A stretch of 64,000 nucleotides of DNA, taken from positions 744,001 to 808,000 of the forward strand of contig NZ_CP015363.1 of the NCBI RefSeq assembly GCF_002078355.1, read 5' to 3'. Position 1 is the stretch's first letter, and each line of letters starts with the position of its first letter. Shown here piece by piece: positions 3,458 to 64,000 of the stretch. Source of the stretch: Ferroplasma acidiphilum (GTDB lineage Archaea > Thermoplasmatota > Thermoplasmata > Thermoplasmatales > Thermoplasmataceae). A program made the position numbers and the translations under genes. The notes below the pieces were generated by a model, which was not told the origin of the DNA, ran no database searches, and worked only from the letters and a program-made list of their open reading frames with translations.

Positions 3458-4291
3458 ATGGGAAACGCAGGAAATAAAAGGAAATACAGGGTACTTACTA
3501 TCATTTTCATTGCAGCAGTGATTATTGCCCTGGTAGGCATAACTGTATATTCCGGCGTTTTCCCTCCTGCATCAGTTGTGGAATCGTACAGTATGGAACA
3601 TTCAGCTCAATGGCAGTATGGAATTATAGATGAGGGAACTGTAGTGCTGGTAAAAAAAGTCAATAATATAAACGATATAGTAACCTATGTCCAGGGAAGA
3701 AGCAGCAATATTAGTACATACGGCGAATATGGAAATGTAATACTATACCACAACAGTGCACTGAATGTTGTGACCATACACAGGGCTATATTCTATCTGG
3801 AATGGAATGGAACCAGCCCGGAAATAGCAGGATACCATAACCAATCCTATATCCATTTTTATAAAGACAATATAGTTCTGGATGGCATAGGATATGCACA
3901 TAGAAATCTTATAGTCAATGTATCCGGTTACGCAGGCGATTCTGGATTTATAACTGTTGGCGACCACAACCTAGCGTGCCTTTCTTATAATTCTGGCTAC
4001 TATAACAGGACATACAATGCATATTATGCTTCTGACCAGAATATCTGGGGAATCAAGCCAGTGTCACTGAACCAGATAGTTGGCAAAGCTTATGGGTATG
4101 TACCATGGTTCGGGCTGGTAAAGCTAAATATTCTAAGGCTAGAGGGTGAGTGGCCAAGGCAATATTACACACATGTTCCTGAGTATTCATATGCCGGGCT
4201 ATTTCTCTCCATTGCAGCCATACTGACAATTATCCTGTTCCCCTATGGAAAGGTATACAATAAAGTCAAAAGAAAGACTAGAAATTCTTAG
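3458..4291 (+). CDS. hypothetical surface protein, N- and C-terminal membrane helices
   Basis: About 277 residues. One hydrophobic segment near the N terminus, preceded by a KRKYR positive cluster, acts as signal or anchor. A large extracytoplasmic region rich in Asn, Tyr and Ser with several N-x-S/T sequons follows, and a second hydrophobic helix with a basic tail (KVKRKTR) ends the protein. The topology suggests a domain outside the cell held at both ends. I prefer the ATG at 3458 to the one at 3443, because a TATA-like stretch at about 3428-3438 would place a leaderless start near 3458. The 3' end overlaps the convergent mevalonate-3-kinase gene by 14 bases. Function unknown. Confidence 0.65.
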   Translation: MGNAGNKRKYRVLTIIFIAAVIIALVGITVYSGVFPPASVVESYSMEHSAQWQYGIIDEGTVVLVKKVNNINDIVTYVQGRSSNISTYGEYGNVILYHNSALNVVTIHRAIFYLEWNGTSPEIAGYHNQSYIHFYKDNIVLDGIGYAHRNLIVNVSGYAGDSGFITVGDHNLACLSYNSGYYNRTYNAYYASDQNIWGIKPVSLNQIVGKAYGYVPWFGLVKLNILRLEGEWPRQYYTHVPEYSYAGLFLSIAAILTIILFPYGKVYNKVKRKTRNS

Positions 4292-5246
4292 ATATAACGT
4301 CCGGTTTCCCTGCTACCTTAAGATACACCGGTGTACACTTAAACTCCATTGCCGCATTTTTCATCTTTTCCATATTCTTCCTTTCCACTGCAACAAATAC
4401 ATTGGTTCCACCGGTCACTATATACGCATTCCAGAATTCAGCTTTCAGCTCCTCAACTTTCTCTATAAGCCTCTGCATTTCATCGGTAATTATAGACACA
4501 CCAACTTCCCTTAGCATGGAGTGGTATTCCTGCGTATCTTTTTCACCTGCTTCAAATATGCCTTTAATATCGCCGCTATCGGCCATTTTTTCAAGTTCCT
4601 TCGCCCTCAATTCAGAGTTTTTTACCCTTTCCGCATATTTTTCATGATTTATGATATTGCTGTGTATGGTATCAGACGGTTTTCTATCCTCCGAAAATTT
4701 GCATGCAACTATTACAAAATCCTCAAAGTCCTCAGGCCCCAGGATTTCATCTGTTAATGATTCCTTTCCGTTGGCATGATTTATTGTAAAGCCGCCGAAC
4801 ATGCTTCTTCCAGCACTTTCAGATATCTGCTGCAGGTCGTTTTCGAAATTAAATATATTTATATTGTATTCAAATATAGATTGTATGCACTCGCCAATTG
4901 CGGCAGCACCTGCATCAGAACTCCCGCTGATCACGTTTTTGTTTTCAGATACAAATGAAACTTCAGAATATTCCGGATGGCGCATAAGAATCTCATGCCT
5001 GTATTTGTCTATGACAACAAATGGGGATCGTGGAGAATCAGGTGAAACCTCCTTTCCGTTTATAATGCCTGATTTCTGGTTAGAAAGGTACAGATCAGTT
5101 TTGACATATATATCATCATCAAGCCCTGTATATGCTATTCCTGCAGTTGTATGCCTGGGGAGGCGTTTCTTATTGTCCGATACTCCACCCAGAAGTAATA
5201 TCCCTATAGTAGGATATGCCTTAACTTCAACGTAATATTTTTCCAT
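4278..5246 (-). CDS. mevalonate-3-kinase (Thermoplasma-type mevalonate pathway)
   Basis: A 322-residue GHMP-fold protein related to diphosphomevalonate decarboxylase. It closely resembles, from memory, Thermoplasma acidophilum Ta1305, which phosphorylates the 3-hydroxyl of mevalonate. Shared landmarks are AYPTIGILLLGG near the N terminus, RHTTAGIAY (31-39), the phosphate-binding loop SGSSDAGAA (107-115), ESAGRS (143-148), KPSDTIH, and a C-terminal NAYIVTGGTNVFVAVE block. In Thermoplasma this enzyme, mevalonate-3-phosphate 5-kinase and a bisphosphomevalonate decarboxylase make isopentenyl phosphate for ether lipids. The other two genes are not in this window. A true decarboxylase is the alternative, but the match favours the 3-kinase. 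Confidence 0.85.
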   Translation of the reverse strand: MEKYYVEVKAYPTIGILLLGGVSDNKKRLPRHTTAGIAYTGLDDDIYVKTDLYLSNQKSGIINGKEVSPDSPRSPFVVIDKYRHEILMRHPEYSEVSFVSENKNVISGSSDAGAAAIGECIQSIFEYNINIFNFENDLQQISESAGRSMFGGFTINHANGKESLTDEILGPEDFEDFVIVACKFSEDRKPSDTIHSNIINHEKYAERVKNSELRAKELEKMADSGDIKGIFEAGEKDTQEYHSMLREVGVSIITDEMQRLIEKVEELKAEFWNAYIVTGGTNVFVAVERKNMEKMKNAAMEFKCTPVYLKVAGKPDVISKNF

Positions 5247-55760: not shown

Positions 55761-57032
55761 ATGCAGATTCTTAACATGGATAATATTGGAACAAATTCAA
55801 GAAGGGTATATGCACTGGAAAAAATTCAGAATGCTATTAATAATCTTAATCCAGCAGCTGCAATGTCAAGGAATTTCAATGTGGACACAGAAAAATTTGA
55901 CCGTGTCTATGTAATTGGATTTGGCAAAGCTTCATTTAACATGTACTCCGGAATACGTGAACGTGTGCTCAAAAAACTATCCTATGCTGGGATTATTATA
56001 CCTGATGACGAAGTACACAACGAGTCATATCAGGAACTGGAGATTTTGCGTGGTACTCATCCCTACGTTAGCAGTTTATCTGTAGAATCTTCAAAAAAAT
56101 TGCTTTCACATTTAGATGGATTAACTGAGAAGGACCTTGTTATTGTGTTGATCTCAGGGGGAGGTTCATCCCTATTCGAGCTACTGGAAACTGGAATAGA
56201 TGTCAATGACCTCAAGGATATATCGGCAGAAATCATGGAAAATGACGGTGATATATACGTATTGAACCGTCTCAGGTCATCGTTATCTGCAGTAAAAAAC
56301 GGAAAACTGGCAAAATATCTTTATCCTGCATCTGTGGCTGGCTATATTATTTCCGATGTGGTTTACGATAACCTGAATATAATTGCTTCCGGACCTCTGG
56401 TAAATATCCCTGCACCGGCGAATTTGAAGGAACTGGCAAAGAAGTACATCAAAGATGCCAGATTGAGAGATATAATAGAAAAAGTAGATATTTCCAAAAC
56501 ACTGGACAGTAAATATTTTACTAATGTGAAAAACACAATTGTTTTAAAAAATCGTGATTTTGTGGATTATATTTATTCGGAACTTGAAGGTGAAAAGATA
56601 AATCTTGGAAGCAATATTAACGGAGATGTGAAAGTAGTATCCAGGGATCTAACTGACATTTTACGGAATATACTGGAGATCAAGGGGGAACCTTTCTGGT
56701 TTGTCTGTGGCGGCGAGACCACCGTAACAGTAACAGGAAACGGCAGTGGGGGTCGAAACCAGGAACTCGCGGTAAGAGTAATGGAAAATATGGGTGATAA
56801 CGATTTTCTTTTTATTTCCATGGGCACAGATGGCATAGATGGAAAGAGCATTGCTGCAGGGGGAATAGTGGACAATTCCACAAGAATTGAAAATTTAGAA
56901 GAGTACCTTGCCAGTAGTGATACTTATACGGCTTTATCAAAAGCCCATGGTGCTATCATAACTGGCAGGACCGGAAATAATGTGTCTGATATAATGCTCG
57001 GGTTCTACGGGCGTACAAATAACAATTTTTAA
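55761..57032 (+). CDS. glycerate 2-kinase (MOFRL family)
   Basis: 423 residues. The N-terminal domain has VYVIGFGKASFNMYSGI and the LISGGGSSLFELLE nucleotide-associated loop; the C-terminal MOFRL domain has VCGGETTVTVTGNGSGGRNQELAVR and MGTDGIDG. These enzymes phosphorylate D-glycerate to 2-phosphoglycerate in the non-phosphorylative Entner-Doudoroff route used by Thermoplasmatales. The gene has its own promoter region, and the small 57062 gene follows after 29 bases. Confidence 0.92.
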   Translation: MQILNMDNIGTNSRRVYALEKIQNAINNLNPAAAMSRNFNVDTEKFDRVYVIGFGKASFNMYSGIRERVLKKLSYAGIIIPDDEVHNESYQELEILRGTHPYVSSLSVESSKKLLSHLDGLTEKDLVIVLISGGGSSLFELLETGIDVNDLKDISAEIMENDGDIYVLNRLRSSLSAVKNGKLAKYLYPASVAGYIISDVVYDNLNIIASGPLVNIPAPANLKELAKKYIKDARLRDIIEKVDISKTLDSKYFTNVKNTIVLKNRDFVDYIYSELEGEKINLGSNINGDVKVVSRDLTDILRNILEIKGEPFWFVCGGETTVTVTGNGSGGRNQELAVRVMENMGDNDFLFISMGTDGIDGKSIAAGGIVDNSTRIENLEEYLASSDTYTALSKAHGAIITGRTGNNVSDIMLGFYGRTNNNF

Positions 57033-57061
57033 ATACTACAGGTAATTATGGAGTGATTGGC

Positions 57062-57223
57062 ATGGAAGAGCTACTTTGCAATATTGAATTTGAGAAAGAT
57101 GAAAAGGGATTTAGCGCCAGGTTGCGAACCGACATGGGTGGCTTGCGTGAATACAACGGTATGACATTAGAAGAAGTATTGAATGAGGTAATACTTGAGC
57201 TTCAGGAGGAATTCTCACCTTAA
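57062..57223 (+). CDS. small conserved-looking protein, 53 residues
   Basis: A short frame translated by hand. It begins MEELLCNIEFEKD, has a compact beta-beta-alpha-like pattern (FSARLRTDMGGLREYNGMTLEEVLNEV) and ends in an acidic helix. The ATG lies 29 bases after the glycerate kinase stop, a normal operon distance, and the codons look like those of neighbouring genes. The layout recalls small HicB-like domains, but no specific motif is present and I do not name a function. Confidence 0.6.
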   Translation: MEELLCNIEFEKDEKGFSARLRTDMGGLREYNGMTLEEVLNEVILELQEEFSP

Positions 57224-57370
57224 ATTTATTTTAATTGAAAACAATAAGTAATGGTAAATTTTATTGGTCATTTTTGTGCATCATAGTTATTAACTAACAT
57301 TTGCAATGGATAATATATGCGATAGAAAATATTCGAAGAATGAAATATATATACATTTATTTAATGATGA

Positions 57371-59467
57371 ATGGTGCACGGAAAAAAATCAAAGTGGAAG
57401 AAAATACTTCCCATAGCAATTGCACTGTTATTTGTTTTAATGGCCGTCTCTTCTATAACCACTCATAGTACTGATATGCTTTCATCATCTGTTAATTCAC
57501 ATGCCTCTAAGGGCCCTGGGGTGACAAACAGTTCATCAGTATTGCCCTCAAATGAAAGTAATTATTCCTCTGTAAACCCGGAGAATTTATACAGGAATGA
57601 GCCTGCCCCTGTTGGCATGGCTGATTACGGACTTGGTACCGGGACCTTATTTGGCGGATATACCCCATATGAATATAATACAACATCATTCTTAGGTTCA
57701 GCTAAAATCTATAATCTGTCCGTAGTAGATAATTCAACAGGAAATAAATGCATGTCCGTTCAATTCAATGTAAATCTTGTTTTTAATAACAGTAATAATA
57801 AATATGTATACTGGGTCCAGGACGTTGCCTTCATTAACACATCCTCCAGGGCTATCACTTTTATTGACAATATCTGGAATATGACATCCAGTGGTGCAAG
57901 CATGTACAATTCTACTGTTAATGGGACCGGAACAGTTAGCAATTATTCAGATTCCGGTTATTATTATTCAATTGCATCCTGTACTTTACCGGGCAATGAT
58001 ATTAAATTACCAAATCTGGCAACCATAAATTTTATGGTGAATAGCACCATGAAAAACGGAAGTCCTGAAGTAGAGCTTATGTATAATGATGGATACGGAT
58101 GGGTGACCTATGACAGCCCGGTTTTTATCTTTGCAACAAATGTAACTTCAGATCAGAGTTTTGTTGTTGATGGCTATAATTATGAACCGGACGGTTATTC
58201 TTTCTATGATGCAGAACTCATTCTTGGAGGACCCGGGGATGGTTCTTCAACCGTAGATATGTCTTCAAACATTCAACTAGGGATAGAATACTGGAATGGG
58301 CATAATTACCAGGAAATAACAAATGCCTTTAATTATGGCAGTGATACTGCAGAAACCATAAGCAACGTTACATCCACAGCAGAATATTACACGTCAAACG
58401 GAACTATTTTCGAAAATGTGACTGCAGGAGACGGTTCCTTATCACAGGTATACAGTTCAGCAGATATATCATTATTGAATATCTCAACACCATTTTCAAG
58501 CGGGAGTATAAGTGTAAACGGAACGGAATATAGTTTCGTAAAACACGAAGTTAACCTGACTCTTGCTCCTGGTGAATATAATTTATCTATTTATAATGGG
58601 ACTATACTTTATAAAAATTTAACAGTTAATCTTACAGCTGGAGAATATTTGCCATTAAATGTGGCGCCAAAATACAATGTTGTCTTTACACAAACAGGAT
58701 TGCCCGCAGGAACAGCATGGTCAGTTACTATTAACGGGAAGACAGAATCATCAGTTACCAATACCATTGTATTTGTACTGGCGAATGATACATACACATA
58801 TACAGTAGAAACACCGGACAAGATCTATAAAGCCGAACATTATTCTGGGGATATCGTAGTAAATGGTTCTTCCTATAAGAGCATAATAAAATTCTCTAAG
58901 GTAACCTATGAAGTTAAATTTATAGAGGCGGGACTTCCGGGCGGATCAGTATGGTATGTCAATTTATCCAGTACAGTGAAATCAGGGCCAATAACAGGGA
59001 ATTCATTTTCATTTGCACTTATAAATGGCACATATACATATAGAACTTCCATTGCAAATGAACCATATGAACCCGTACCATCCTCTTCCGGAATCTCTGT
59101 ACACGGGGGCAACATCTCAACAACGATAACATTCTCTAGAATGTACACTGTAAAATTTGTTGAAACAGGATTGCCTGCTGGAACAACATGGTTAGTTACA
59201 CTTAATGGAACTACGGAATCGTCCGATAACAATACCATACTGTTTGCCTTGCACAATGGAACATATACATACACCGTAAGCGGGGTAAATGGAAATAAAA
59301 TATCAAGCAATTCAGGAAATGTAGATGTAAACGGTAAAAATGTTACAGTTAATAATATTAAATATACACCGGAACACAATTATACCCTATATTATGGGAT
59401 TGGAGTTGTAGCAGCAATTGCAATAATCATTTCTGCCGCAATAGTAGCAATAAGGAGAAAGAAGTAA
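57371..59467 (+). CDS. membrane-anchored thermopsin-like acid protease (family A5) with three repeats
   Basis: 698 residues. A signal peptide (basic KKSKWKK, then a hydrophobic run, about 8-30) leads an extracellular region rich in N-x-S/T sites. Residues about 75-345 match thermopsin: PVGMADYGLG, YNTTSFLG, YVYWVQDVAFI and FIDNIWNM. Three repeats follow at about 435, 513 and 592, each with VxFxxxGLPxGxxW. A C-terminal helix (about 672-692) and RRKK tail anchor it. Thermopsins are acid, heat-stable proteases, so this enzyme should digest proteins outside the cell at low pH. The repeats are probably stalk or wall-binding domains. Confidence 0.88.
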   Translation: MVHGKKSKWKKILPIAIALLFVLMAVSSITTHSTDMLSSSVNSHASKGPGVTNSSSVLPSNESNYSSVNPENLYRNEPAPVGMADYGLGTGTLFGGYTPYEYNTTSFLGSAKIYNLSVVDNSTGNKCMSVQFNVNLVFNNSNNKYVYWVQDVAFINTSSRAITFIDNIWNMTSSGASMYNSTVNGTGTVSNYSDSGYYYSIASCTLPGNDIKLPNLATINFMVNSTMKNGSPEVELMYNDGYGWVTYDSPVFIFATNVTSDQSFVVDGYNYEPDGYSFYDAELILGGPGDGSSTVDMSSNIQLGIEYWNGHNYQEITNAFNYGSDTAETISNVTSTAEYYTSNGTIFENVTAGDGSLSQVYSSADISLLNISTPFSSGSISVNGTEYSFVKHEVNLTLAPGEYNLSIYNGTILYKNLTVNLTAGEYLPLNVAPKYNVVFTQTGLPAGTAWSVTINGKTESSVTNTIVFVLANDTYTYTVETPDKIYKAEHYSGDIVVNGSSYKSIIKFSKVTYEVKFIEAGLPGGSVWYVNLSSTVKSGPITGNSFSFALINGTYTYRTSIANEPYEPVPSSSGISVHGGNISTTITFSRMYTVKFVETGLPAGTTWLVTLNGTTESSDNNTILFALHNGTYTYTVSGVNGNKISSNSGNVDVNGKNVTVNNIKYTPEHNYTLYYGIGVVAAIAIIISAAIVAIRRKK

Positions 59468-59538
59468 GATATATTCAGTAATCCCGTATATATAGGTGTA
59501 TCTATTTGGTGGATTCCATATTTAAAGTATAAACTATT

Positions 59539-60288
59539 TTAGATGTTAATCCATGATGATACAATTTCAATTATTTTTTGTATTTCCGGTATTTCTCCCA
59601 TTACTATTGGTTTTAATTCATTACTGAATATTTTTTCCTGTTTTAATATTTCATTAATAAATTCCATTTTATCGAAAATTATATTATAAAACTTTAGCTT
59701 CATATTAATTAATTCTGGATCAAAAATTACTTTTTTAAAATAAATTAAATAATATAAATCATATATATCTCTCGCTTTTTTCCTTGTATATATTGCCCTT
59801 ACTTTTTCTGCTGCCACTTCATCAAGATTCATTCCTGATAATATTCTTATTGGCAAATTATATTCGGGAAAATCAAAATTTAATGCCATTGCCTGTTTAA
59901 TAATTTTCTCTCTTCTACTTATTTCAACATAAACAGGAACCATACTCAAAATATTTGTATACAATGGCCCTTCTGAAAGGAGCCTGAATGATAATGTTAT
60001 ATTATCATTTTTAACAATTTTTAACTCATTATTAATCCCCTGTAATTTCAGCTCCTCCGAAACTTTATCAGGCAAATTACCTTTTAACATTGAATTTTCT
60101 GTAAAATCAAGATCCTCTGAAAATCTTCGTAAACCATGGAAAAGCCACAAATATGTGCCACCTTTAAATATCAAAGGCTCATTATAAATTGCATTTAAGA
60201 CTACTGAAAGCATATACCTTTTTTCCTCCTGCCATGGCCTTAGACCATGCAATTTTGATAGTTTTATTATATCATCCTTATCAATCAT
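59539..60288 (-). CDS. AbiEii-like nucleotidyltransferase toxin (module 1)
   Basis: 249 residues of the AbiEii family. The nucleotidyltransferase motif is intact: GGT at 43-45 and the metal pair D59/D61 in RFSEDLDF. The second family block, EVAAEKVRAIYTRKKARDIYDLYYL, is also present. In type IV AbiE systems this protein is a toxin that modifies nucleic-acid targets (tRNA in related proteins) and is held in check by AbiEi. Its ATG overlaps the AbiEi stop by four bases (ATGA), so the two are co-translated. Confidence 0.87.
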   Translation of the reverse strand: MIDKDDIIKLSKLHGLRPWQEEKRYMLSVVLNAIYNEPLIFKGGTYLWLFHGLRRFSEDLDFTENSMLKGNLPDKVSEELKLQGINNELKIVKNDNITLSFRLLSEGPLYTNILSMVPVYVEISRREKIIKQAMALNFDFPEYNLPIRILSGMNLDEVAAEKVRAIYTRKKARDIYDLYYLIYFKKVIFDPELINMKLKFYNIIFDKMEFINEILKQEKIFSNELKPIVMGEIPEIQKIIEIVSSWINI

Positions 60289-60860
60289 TTTAATATCTCC
60301 ATGATTTTTTTTATTTTTCTTATCTTAATATTCTTTAAATTCCGAATAAGATCTGAAAAGTCTATATTATTTTTGAATTCATTAATATCATTTTCTGAAA
60401 AAATATTCAGATATAATCCATCAAAGACTGCTTTATCTGGATTCGCAACAAAAATATAGCTATTATTATAATTATACCGTTTATATCCAAAAAATAATTC
60501 AGGCTTTATTTTATGATATGATATTCCCAATTTATTGTAATTTATTGAGTTTATCGTAGTAACACATTCCACCTTACCAGGAACCTGCTGCGCCAATTTA
60601 TGGAATAGTAATGCAGAATTTGTAGAGATATACGATGGATAAATTAATTGTGATGCCATAATAAAATCGTCATTAATAAATGAAATTTTCCCGTTTACAG
60701 GCTTAGTTGCAAGGTTATTCCTAACTAATCTGTTCATGTATACAATAGCTACTTTATTGTTTTTCTGGATTAGATTTGCAAATTCATTTACATTATATAC
60801 CGAAACATTATTTTTCAATGCCATATCCCTGATTTTGTATAATGTCAATTCTTTCATCAT
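60285..60860 (-). CDS. AbiEi-like antitoxin/transcription regulator (module 1)
   Basis: 191 residues. The N terminus is a winged helix (LYKIRDMALKNNVSVYNVNEFANLIQKNNKVAIVYMNRLVRNNLATK). The C-terminal domain carries the AbiEi-type block SYISTNSALLFHKLAQQVP and NPDKAVFDGLYL. AbiEi proteins repress their own promoter by binding inverted repeats and neutralise AbiEii. A perfect 16-base palindrome lies seven bases before its start. Intact. Confidence 0.85.
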   Translation of the reverse strand: MMKELTLYKIRDMALKNNVSVYNVNEFANLIQKNNKVAIVYMNRLVRNNLATKPVNGKISFINDDFIMASQLIYPSYISTNSALLFHKLAQQVPGKVECVTTINSINYNKLGISYHKIKPELFFGYKRYNYNNSYIFVANPDKAVFDGLYLNIFSENDINEFKNNIDFSDLIRNLKNIKIRKIKKIMEILK

Positions 60861-60866
60861 ACCACA

Positions 60867-60882
60867 ATAACAATATTGTTAT
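60867..60882. promoter_or_regulatory. operator palindrome of AbiE module 1
   Basis: ATAACAATATTGTTAT is a perfect 16-base palindrome. It overlaps the TATA-like TATATAAC and the expected start of transcription, seven bases before the AbiEi ATG. Binding here by AbiEi would block the promoter. Confidence 0.6.
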
Positions 60883-61004
60883 ATACACGTGACTTAAATA
60901 CTTTTTCCCTGATTATTCGTAAAATTACGTATTCTTCATGTATAATAATTTGGAAAAATATAATAAAAAATTGGCAAATGTTAAAATTTTATATCGTAAT
61001 TGTT

Positions 61005-61799
61005 TTATTTAATTATATAATCAATAACAGTATCTTTAACAGCATCAAACGGAATAATTACATTCAATAAACTTTCCATTTCAGTATTCCAGATATCCCC
61101 TATTGAAATTACTTTTTCCAGGAATTCATCTATATTAAATCCTTGAACTTGCGTATATTTTTGCAGTTTGTAATTTATCATTTCTATATTTATTTTAACA
61201 TTGTATTTTGTGATTAGGAGCCATAAATCATATAAATCCCTGGCAACAGGGTTTTTTTTCTCCATAATTGCTTTTATTTTTTCTGCTGCGAATTCTTCTG
61301 CCTCTAATGTCAAAAGGAAATAGGGCCTTATTTCTGGATAAATTGTAGTTCTTAAAACCTTTTTAGGATTATAAAATGGCCGTACATACAAATTTATATC
61401 CAGTTTTATGGTCTGTATCGCTCTCACACTATGGGACATTTCATAAAAAGGCCCTTTAATTTTTAAATTATATCTAAGCATATCTCTTCTTTTAAGGGTA
61501 CTATACTCTATAGGATAAAAATTATTAACTTCTTTAATTGCTTTTTTAACTCTATTTTCTACATCAGTTGTATCATAACTTTTATCAAAAATAAAATTAA
61601 GATCCTCTGAAAATCTCCCGGAACCATAAACTTTTGAAATAGCAGTGCCACCGATAAATATTATATCATTAACTGGACTAATATAAAAAAGACTGTTTAG
61701 AACAATTTCCTGAAGATAATCCTTTTCTGTACTGTACGAATTTTTAAATCCCATAATTTTTGTGTAATCTTTCCATTTCTTGATTTCAATATTATCCAT
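61005..61799 (-). CDS. AbiEii-like nucleotidyltransferase toxin (module 2), altered metal site
   Basis: 264 residues, same family as the toxin at 59539. The GGT motif (50-52) is present, but the metal pair reads D66 and N68 (RFSEDLNF) where the neighbour has two aspartates; a single base (GAT to AAT) explains it. The second block EFAAEKIKAIMEKKNPVARDLYDLWLL is intact. The antitoxin gene upstream is cut by an IS, so this toxin now lacks its partner; weak or lost activity would explain survival. It begins four bases after the old antitoxin stop. Confidence 0.82.
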   Translation of the reverse strand: MDNIEIKKWKDYTKIMGFKNSYSTEKDYLQEIVLNSLFYISPVNDIIFIGGTAISKVYGSGRFSEDLNFIFDKSYDTTDVENRVKKAIKEVNNFYPIEYSTLKRRDMLRYNLKIKGPFYEMSHSVRAIQTIKLDINLYVRPFYNPKKVLRTTIYPEIRPYFLLTLEAEEFAAEKIKAIMEKKNPVARDLYDLWLLITKYNVKINIEMINYKLQKYTQVQGFNIDEFLEKVISIGDIWNTEMESLLNVIIPFDAVKDTVIDYIIK

Positions 61800-61968
61800 A
61801 AAATTACCGCCTTTTATTAATTAATGCCAGAACTATTTCATATGTTTTTTTTGAGTGTACTTTTTCTGAATAAAATAATAATCTTTCTATATCTATTAAT
61901 TTATTATCAATGCCATTATTAAGAGCTTCTTCTATATATGCAATGGGTGGGTTTGCTAAATACACAGA

Positions 61969-61975
61969 ATCAACT
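61969..61975 (+). repeat. target site duplication of the IS256-type element, left copy
   Basis: ATCAACT directly before the inverted repeat of the element; the same seven bases follow the other end at 63267-63273. IS256-family elements usually duplicate 8-9 bases, so the true duplication may be one base longer or partly altered. Confidence 0.85.
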
Positions 61976-63266
61976 GATTGTGTCCAGAATTATGTGTGTT
62001 TATAAAGGGTACCTCCTATTGAACATTTCTTTTATTTCATCATTGCATTTATAATATCCGTTCATCTTCCTGAATGCATGCTTTGAATTGTATTCTATTG
62101 ATTTATAGTAAAATACCTTCATTGCTGAATCCTCATCAGGGAATGATGATATTGTTTTTACCCTTCTCCTTACCTCTCCATTAAATCGTTCAATAGCATT
62201 GGTAGATTTCAATGATCTCCATATACTGGAAGGATAATTATAGAATCTTAATAGCTTTCCCAGATTCTTTTCAGTATTGTATATTACCTTAGGATACTTG
62301 TTCTCCCATTTGTATTTAAAATCATTGAATTTTATAATAGCTTCTTCTTTATTATCACATTTAAACATCTTATTCGCATCTATTGTTATTTCATCAATAT
62401 CTTTCTCCCTTACATTTGATTTTAATCCTCTTGCATAGTGTATTGTACACAATTGAAACTCTGATCGGGGATATATTTCCATTACTTCCTCATCCAGATT
62501 CTTTATTCCATCTGCTACAATTAACAATGGCTCTTTTAATCCTCTATTATACAGGTCTTCCAGTACATCCTTATATGTATTATGTGATTCTTTAACTGTT
62601 AAATAGAATCCCAGTAACTCATATTCTCCTGTTTCTTTAATTCCTAATGCAAATATAACAGGCTCTTTATCCACATTTCCCCTTCTTAAATAGAAGAATA
62701 ATCCATCTAAAAATACTGCTATATACCTTTTATCCAGTGGCCTGTTAATAAACTTATAAACCTCTTCTATGGTTAAATCTGTTATTCTTGATACTGTGGA
62801 TTTAGAATATTTATTTCCTAATATATCCTCCATTATACCTGCTATTCTCCTTGTAGATATGCCATTGGAATACATTGATACTATTAGGTCCTCCATTCCT
62901 ATTGATCTGTTATAGGGTTCTATTACCTGTGTATGGAAATTGCTTTCCCTGTCTCTTGGTATGTTTAACTGTTTTATTTCACCATACTTTGTCTTTAGAT
63001 CTCTCTTATATTTTCCATTCTTTATTCCTGGATTATTTTCTAAATATGCATTTAACTCTATTTCCATTAATTTCTCTATTCTTTCCTTTATTGCATTTCT
63101 CAATAATTTATCTATGTCTATGTTCTCAATATCCGATATGTTTATATCTGTATTTTCCATATTTTATTACCTCCCTGAACAAAAGAGGTATCCTTCTCTG
63201 TTATTTAATGATTGAATTCATTGATAACAGAGGGGTTTATATTTACACATAATTACATACACAACC
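61976..63266 (-). mobile_element. complete IS256-type insertion sequence, 1291 bp
   Basis: Imperfect terminal inverted repeats: GATTGTGTCCAGAATTATGTG at the low end and the reverse of GGTTGTGTATGTAATTATGTG at the high end. It holds one transposase gene (62000-63160) and is flanked by ATCAACT on both sides. The second, damaged copy is at 16238-17517. Ends, gene and duplication are all intact, so it is probably active or recently was. Confidence 0.92.
62000..63160 (-). CDS. IS256/mutator-type transposase
   Basis: 386 residues. The DDE triad is D152 (VFLDGLFF), D217 (IVADGIK) and E324 (STNAIERFNGEVRRR). The region TVKESHNTYKDVLEDLYNRG and CTIHYARG between the second D and E is typical of the family. 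It is led by a GGGAGG ribosome site seven bases before the ATG. It is the intact counterpart of the truncated gene at 16343. Confidence 0.95.
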   Translation of the reverse strand: MENTDINISDIENIDIDKLLRNAIKERIEKLMEIELNAYLENNPGIKNGKYKRDLKTKYGEIKQLNIPRDRESNFHTQVIEPYNRSIGMEDLIVSMYSNGISTRRIAGIMEDILGNKYSKSTVSRITDLTIEEVYKFINRPLDKRYIAVFLDGLFFYLRRGNVDKEPVIFALGIKETGEYELLGFYLTVKESHNTYKDVLEDLYNRGLKEPLLIVADGIKNLDEEVMEIYPRSEFQLCTIHYARGLKSNVREKDIDEITIDANKMFKCDNKEEAIIKFNDFKYKWENKYPKVIYNTEKNLGKLLRFYNYPSSIWRSLKSTNAIERFNGEVRRRVKTISSFPDEDSAMKVFYYKSIEYNSKHAFRKMNGYYKCNDEIKEMFNRRYPL

Positions 63267-63273
63267 ATCAACT
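63267..63273 (+). repeat. target site duplication of the IS256-type element, right copy
   Basis: ATCAACT, identical to 61969-61975, immediately beyond the high-coordinate end of the element and within the antitoxin coding sequence. Confidence 0.85.
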
Positions 63274-63732
63274 ATTGCTTTCTCCGGATCTGAAATAGAA
63301 ATATATGTATTTTTATCTATATGGTAACCGTAGATTTTTGTATTCTTTAATGTTATAAATTTTATTTTATACCCTTCAATTTCTATATCCTTGTGCCTTT
63401 TTGATGAAATAACATATATTGTATCGTATATCTGAGTTACAAGGTTATAATAAGAAAAAGCAGACGATATCCCTATATAGGATGGTTCCAGAATATTAGA
63501 GGCTATTGCAAATATATCTGTTCCTGGCAGATAGAACTTATTCCTGCCTGCTCTTTTTGCATAGCCGTGTTCTACTAAACGGTTCGCCACCAGTGATGAA
63601 TACTTTATATTGCTATTTTCTATTATTTCTATATCATATGTTCTGAACACGCCTTTATAGTCATTTTTAATTGTATCAAGTAAGTTTATTGTATTCATAT
63701 TTCAATATTTTAATTAAGTATATAGCACTATT

Positions 63733-63752
63733 GTTTATCATAATTGATAAAC
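63733..63752. promoter_or_regulatory. operator-like inverted repeat of AbiE module 2
   Basis: GTTTATCA-TAAT-TGATAAAC has perfect 8-base arms with a 4-base spacer. It lies about 35 bases before the antitoxin start, just upstream of a TATA-like CTATATACTTAATT on the minus strand. The sequence differs from the module 1 palindrome, so the two regulators probably recognise different sites. Confidence 0.55.
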
Positions 63753-63886
63753 TATATGTTATAATATTTTTTTAAAATATGTTGTCTATTGAATATAGAA
63801 ACACTGCAATTCAGGGTAAAAACATCCGGAAGTAATGTATATCCATGGTTTTCAAATTATGATTTGTTACAATAATAAAAATAAAT

Positions 63887-64000
63887 TTAACTTTTAACAG
63901 TGATATCACTGCTTCTCCTTTCCTCTTTCCCCCGCGAGAATGATAGAAAAGCACCTAACAGTAGTATTGCCATAGAAACATATAACGAATAATGTATTCC
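63887..64000 (-). CDS. membrane protein, C-terminal end only (cut by window edge)
   Basis: The last 37 codons of a gene that continues beyond the window: a hydrophobic helix (YSLYVSMAILLLGAFLSF) then a basic and polar tail (SRGKEERRSSDITVKS). It looks like the end of a multi-helix transporter, perhaps MFS, but too little is present to be sure. Confidence 0.5.
   Translation of the reverse strand, partial: GIHYSLYVSMAILLLGAFLSFSRGKEERRSSDITVKS

Follow-up and report, generated by a model that had tools for sequence, protein, structure and literature searches.

How can a cell carry an AbiE toxin gene with an open reading frame when the gene of the cognate antitoxin has been cut by an insertion sequence (IS)? 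This question is raised by a 64,000-nucleotide stretch of the Ferroplasma acidiphilum YT genome (one contig, 1,826,943 bases), below called the window, the minus strand of which carries two AbiE-type pairs, one intact and one with a split antitoxin (Table 1). The answer that we favor, with a probability of roughly 70%, is that the latter pair is a decayed AbiE operon, in which the toxin has very probably lost its catalytic activity and the loss of the antitoxin would for that reason be tolerated. The first-pass annotation of this DNA, which expected a toxin without its antitoxin to be harmful, was correct in placing a second AbiE pair next to it. The AbiE pairs adjoin a thermopsin-family protein of 698 residues (57371-59467; Pfam, 269 bits), full-length counterparts of which are found in the genome of the related strain Fer1 ("F. 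acidarmanus"; locus L034) and in locus L036.

Table 1. Features of the two AbiE pairs and of the insertion sequence in the window
Feature	Position	Strand	Basis
Neighbouring abiEii, 249 aa, scored catalytic motifs intact	59539-60288	-	ORF, Pfam, motif table
Neighbouring abiEi, intact, 191 aa	60285-60860	-	ORF list, PADLOC
abiEii toxin, 264 aa, open frame, motif II D68N and motif III R181K	61005-61799	-	ORF, Pfam, PADLOC, motif alignment
Toxin codon 68, AAT (Asn) replacing the second catalytic Asp	61596-61598	-	Fer1 comparison
3' piece of abiEi: codons of the last 54 residues, stop and duplication; open frame	61804-61975	-	
Target-site duplication ATCAACT, left copy	61969-61975		
IS256-family insertion sequence, 1291 bp, within abiEi	61976-63266	-	
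IS256 transposase, 386 aa, co-directional with the abiE operon	62000-63160	-	
5' piece of abiEi: 144 AbiEi residues and 7 from the IS	63243-63698	-	
Target-site duplication ATCAACT, right copy	63267-63273		
Palindrome GTTTATCATAATTGATAAAC 5' of the split abiEi, candidate AbiEi operator	63733-63752		upstream-region comparison

The insertion in abiEi is real and not a chance resemblance, because all six full-length copies of the element in the YT genome are flanked by a 7-bp target duplication and the corresponding site in Fer1 is empty. The size of the element and the 7-base duplication within the antitoxin gene, both described in the first pass, were confirmed. On the plus strand its termini read GATTGTG.../...CACAACC, and the terminal inverted repeats are 32 nt long and 75% complementary. 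The transposase scores 319 bits against the NCBIfam model transpos_IS256 (NF033543, cut-off 150) and 298 bits against Pfam Transposase_mut, in agreement with the proposed IS256 type. Target duplications in the IS256 family are usually 8-9 bp long, and their length is not a strict criterion; the family assignment of this element, with its 7-bp duplications, rests on the transposase. A search of relatives for the uninterrupted gene found it in Fer1 (NC_021592.1, L034), where the empty site lies in an intact abiEi of 198 residues. Both flanks of the IS align to this locus, window positions 57008-61980 at 95.5% and 63257-64000 at 97.0%, and the two alignments meet at L034 3821-3840, so that the regions before and after the IS are continuous in a relative. 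When the flanks in the window are joined across the empty site, a 198-residue AbiEi frame is restored, as had been claimed.

The window copy of the IS is 100% identical to a copy at C1:1386187-1387478 (L038) and 90-91% identical to the other four full copies in YT, and the closest copies in Fer1 reach 91% (full-length) and 92% (partial). These identities suggest that this variant of the IS spread in YT after its split from Fer1. Two of the six full copies reside in AbiEi genes. Of the 25 matches to the IS in the YT genome, 18 are fragments only about 30-210 bp long, such as C1:829303-829394 and C1:1733553-1733639, many of them from an end of the element and resembling non-autonomous relics. 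The L038 copy lies within a frame of roughly 400 aa that resembles a transposase, and the first 200 residues of this frame match an ORF adjoining a third AbiE locus of YT (L083 3071-4270).

As a result of the insertion abiEi is split after residue 144 of 198, and the operon is left without an intact AbiEi. The 5' piece still matches the PADLOC AbiEi model (E 1.4e-28), and the 3' piece has no in-frame ATG. Among the truncations of S. agalactiae AbiEi described as tested, none was autoregulatory, and they were also unstable; N-terminal truncations gave no protection, whereas the C-terminal domain alone protected (PMC3985639). Since this C-terminal part is itself cut in YT, the split AbiEi probably keeps neither autoregulation nor protection. 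Between YT and Fer1 the dN/dS ratio is 0.45 for the 3' piece versus 0.09 for the 5' piece, on 11 and 15 differences, which are too few to use. A palindrome is found 5' of abiEi in all four upstream regions compared, and that of the broken operon is conserved in the two Fer1 copies as well as in genome G007. The intact abiEi of the window has a different palindrome directly 5' of it, ATAACAATATTGTTAT (60867-60882).

The toxin gene does remain an open frame over its full length, as annotated, and its product is recognized both by Pfam AbiEii (PF08843/DUF1814; 85.7 bits, cut-off 22.5) and by PADLOC AbiEii (E 4.1e-97); the word "intact" does not, however, extend to the active site. Motif I (hG[G/S]) is present as FIGGT and motif IV (+DxxD) as RDLYD, whereas motif II (R...DhD) reads RFSEDLN against RFSEDLD in the family, and motif III keeps its Lys and has Lys in place of Arg. 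At codon 68 YT has AAT and both Fer1 copies have GAC; at codon 181 YT has AAA, and both Fer1 copies and genome G008 have AGA. Asp takes the position of Asn68, which corresponds to D69 of S. agalactiae AbiEii, in 30 of the 31 other toxins readable in the motif table and in 102 of the 112 toxins of the survey described below; R181 is equivalent to R180 of the S. agalactiae protein. A structure prediction for the toxin, made from a six-row alignment, had a mean pLDDT of 54, too low for a fold search. Three weak matches with E values no higher than 1 (best 0.015) were obtained in a sequence search of solved structures, and all three place Asp opposite the Asn of the window toxin, which was not used as proof. 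TglT (Rv1045) of Mycobacterium tuberculosis, presumably the toxin also named MenT3, was not among these three PDB sequences.

The published mutants that can be compared with the YT changes of Asp to Asn and Arg to Lys have Asp replaced by Ala or Glu and R180 replaced by Ala: S. agalactiae AbiEii R63A, D67A, D69A, D67E, D69E, K173A, R180A and D192A are described as non-toxic (PMC3985639), as is TglT D82A, in which the second Asp of DxD is changed (PMC7205606). Mutagenesis of these homologs makes it quite probable that the window toxin, with Asn for the second DxD Asp and Lys for the motif III Arg, is inactive. Replacement of this metal-binding Asp and of the motif III Arg would deprive the toxin of its activity, loss of the antitoxin would then cost the cell little or nothing, and an IS insertion in abiEi would be tolerated. 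Of the three explanations offered in the first pass (silencing of the operon by the IS, a weak toxin, or protection by the neighbouring AbiEi), the weak toxin was thus the nearest, though the specific cause of the weakness had been missed. We also infer, with less assurance than for the loss of activity itself, that the toxin died before the IS arrived.

The reverse order, in which the insertion preceded a suppressor mutation that disarmed the toxin under strong selection, is possible although rather unlikely. The complete identity of the window IS to one other copy makes the insertion look recent. Five amino acid changes in the toxin, counted by residue over codons 1-253, are specific to YT with respect to both Fer1 copies (two more codons differ among all three sequences), and two of the five affect catalytic positions, of which seven were scored; by chance this has a probability of about 0.007 (7/253 codons) in a post hoc test, and selection looks a likelier source of these two hits than drift. 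Each of the three base substitutions at codons 68 and 181 replaces G:C by A:T, as do 115 of the 116 substitutions reported for a laboratory culture of YT (PMC5473848); this bias agrees with the IS-first order and fits a toxin-first order just as well. What argues against the IS-first order is the toxin at the same locus in Fer1, which has a catalytic change beside an intact AbiEi, and the balance of one-sided states in the order Thermoplasmatales.

Fer1 and YT have a median ANI of 98.7% (PMC5473848). The L034 operon of Fer1 lies in the same place, with the same neighbours on the side compared, and its toxin is 90% identical to that of YT. In contrast to the split AbiEi and D68N of YT, it has an uninterrupted AbiEi and an intact DxD, and its toxin carries R62I, a replacement of the motif II Arg by Ile; for this Arg, the S. 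agalactiae AbiEii mutant R63A is one of those described as non-toxic. The syntenic locus thus shows a putative intermediate, in which the antitoxin is intact and the toxin is already changed. A second Fer1 toxin copy (L035 3995-4876) differs at its C-terminal end and carries a motif IV change, R187W; the basic residue of motif IV is not among the S. agalactiae AbiEii mutants described in PMC3985639. Over the longer time since YT and Fer1 diverged, the toxin retains the look of a gene under constraint (dN/dS 0.2), so that its decay, if real, would be recent. The differences between the L034 toxin (4001-4795) and that of YT come in blocks, with identity per 60 bp between 0.80 and 1.00, a pattern that recombination could produce; this makes simple rate comparisons unsafe, and they were not used for dating the decay.

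The combination of an IS-cut antitoxin with a change of a motif II Asp to Asn occurs twice in the YT genome. In the third AbiE-like locus (C1:948391-950886; L083 4392-6887) motif II of the toxin reads SVNID, in which the first catalytic Asp is Asn (equivalent to D67N), and the antitoxin gene, located downstream of the toxin gene, is interrupted behind residue 45, where a copy of the IS that is 91% identical to the window copy has inserted with a 7-bp duplication. With the IS taken out, this antitoxin frame meets a stop after 160 residues, against about 184-228 in neighbouring antitoxins of the group, so that it seems to have lost its end as well. In the YT pair with an intact antitoxin, the scored motifs of the toxin are intact. 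An additional AbiEi remnant of 35 residues with a stop (C1:860791-860895, L084), perhaps a deleted second copy, lies near an ORF named ATPase-like by eye (L084 3207-4304), which resembles the AbiE neighbour in Fer1 L035.

The order-wide survey found PF08843 in 54 of 117 Thermoplasmatales genomes, and the listed places were scored for seven catalytic residues and for the nearest AbiEi. Repeated loci were counted once (L001-L005 and L033 were not reused), and of 132 distinct ORFs, 112 were readable, the other 20 having a motif position missing or fewer than 190 aa; L035 was scored as canonical, its R187W and altered end lying outside the seven positions. A catalytic change was found in 27 of the 112 (L024, L026, L034, L083, L088, L093, L095, L100, L107 and L120 are among these loci). 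Beside an intact antitoxin there are 80 canonical and 22 changed toxins, and beside a broken or absent one 2 canonical and 4 changed; at another four full toxins (3 canonical, 1 changed), which were left out of the Fisher test, the antitoxin side is at a contig edge. A changed toxin beside an intact antitoxin (22 cases) is thus a commoner one-sided state than a canonical toxin with a broken or absent antitoxin (2 cases), which argues that the change in the toxin may often precede the loss of the antitoxin. In one of the two canonical exceptions (L013) both toxin and antitoxin are frame-split, and for the other (L111), whose branch is very long, no neighbouring AbiEi was found.

Changed toxins make up 4 of the 6 with a broken or absent antitoxin and 22 of the 102 with an intact one (one-sided Fisher p = 0.029); when D-to-E and R180-to-K are not counted as changes, the figures are 4 changed and 2 not versus 17 and 85 (p = 0.013). 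This test had been prompted by the two YT loci and leans on them, since p becomes 0.082 without the window locus and 0.22 without both. Among toxins close to the model the association is seen (3 of 4 with broken or absent versus 7 of 56 with intact antitoxin, p = 0.013), whereas there is none among distant toxins (1 of 2 versus 15 of 46, p = 0.56). Because of the p value of 0.22 without the YT loci and the lack of association in distant toxins, a link between broken antitoxins and catalytic changes beyond the YT genome is only suggestive.

The 27 changed toxins are mostly single tips next to canonical relatives and require at least 22 state changes on a FastTree tree (unrooted, with the direction assumed from the majority). 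The two Asp of DxD account for 21 of the 31 changed residues (against an expectation of 2 in 7 if all scored positions were equal, binomial p about 7e-6, in a post hoc test on rows that are not independent), and no change in the survey falls on D192. Several of the changed letters in distant members rest on profile alignment, and the seven sequences printed whole agree by eye. It is conceivable, though doubtful, that Thermoplasmatales AbiEii have repeatedly lost one catalytic Asp and been kept as pseudo-toxins (a decoy, a sensor or an anti-addiction device), and that YT represents the end stage, in which the antitoxin too is lost. This reading is based on conservation of the motif III Lys, the motif IV Asp and the rest of the protein, together with the intact antitoxin.

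With regard to the YT locus itself, it is improbable that the toxin is active and either not made or too weak to matter, the antitoxin being dispensable. In Mesorhizobium huakuii a mutant of abiEi is described as viable, with growth as before in minimal medium and a defect confined to rich medium (PMC8436566), so that a cell may do without the antitoxin even if its toxin is active; moreover, the IS parts the toxin gene from the operon's own promoter. However, the transposase and toxin genes are co-directional, and their strand shows no stretch of at least five T in the interval between them, an anatomy that also disfavors the earlier proposal of silencing by the IS. The candidate operator and the bases directly 5' of the toxin start are the same as in Fer1, and the change of the catalytic Asp would be left unexplained. 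The other proposal from the first pass, neutralization of the orphan toxin by the neighbouring AbiEi, has position in its favor: an intact gene lies 144 bp past the end of the toxin gene. Its product and the Fer1 version of the lost antitoxin share only 28% identity over 145 residues, the promoter palindromes of the two operons differ, and such protection is unnecessary if the toxin is dead, so that we consider it very improbable. An assembly artefact at a repeated element, two copies of which are identical, is hardly credible given the site-specific duplication, the empty site in Fer1, the location of D68N about 380 bp outside the IS, and the described finishing of the genome by 454 (34x), Illumina, fosmid ends and directed closure (PMC5473848).

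The favored reading of a decayed operon with a catalytically dead toxin can be set against several known systems. S. agalactiae AbiE, a type IV toxin-antitoxin system (Dy et al. 2014, PMC3985639), has in common with the YT locus, as far as it is described there, the bicistronic antitoxin-toxin order, a DUF1814/PF08843 toxin with motifs I-IV in order, an AbiEi-family antitoxin (in YT before the insertion) and a palindrome 5' of the operon; the YT locus differs in its IS-cut antitoxin and in a toxin that lacks two catalytic residues, the second Asp of motif II and the Arg of motif III. TglT is likewise a DUF1814 nucleotidyltransferase toxin and needs the second DxD Asp for toxicity, but it is functional, and its antitoxin is reported to act as a kinase (PMC7205606). 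Orphan and degraded toxin-antitoxin partners are already known in general; those reported from Klebsiella and E. coli resemble YT in that one partner is lost or degraded, and they were called by the absence of a partner (PMC7192599, PMC10790755), whereas in YT the failing residue is identified. Among the literature matches listed, as titles and beginnings of abstracts drawn mainly from the open literature, there was no paper on the YT locus or on recurrent loss of DxD in AbiEii. The YT locus is best regarded as a decayed member of the AbiE family, and the recurrent change of a catalytic Asp as the part worth pursuing.

The apparent paradox of a free toxin without its antitoxin can be explained in this case through one residue, and it illustrates that an armed toxin cannot be recognized from its open reading frame alone. 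Should the wider pattern be what it seems, about one in four of the readable AbiEii in the Thermoplasmatales may be disarmed, and the numbers of defense systems counted by family searches would then be too high.
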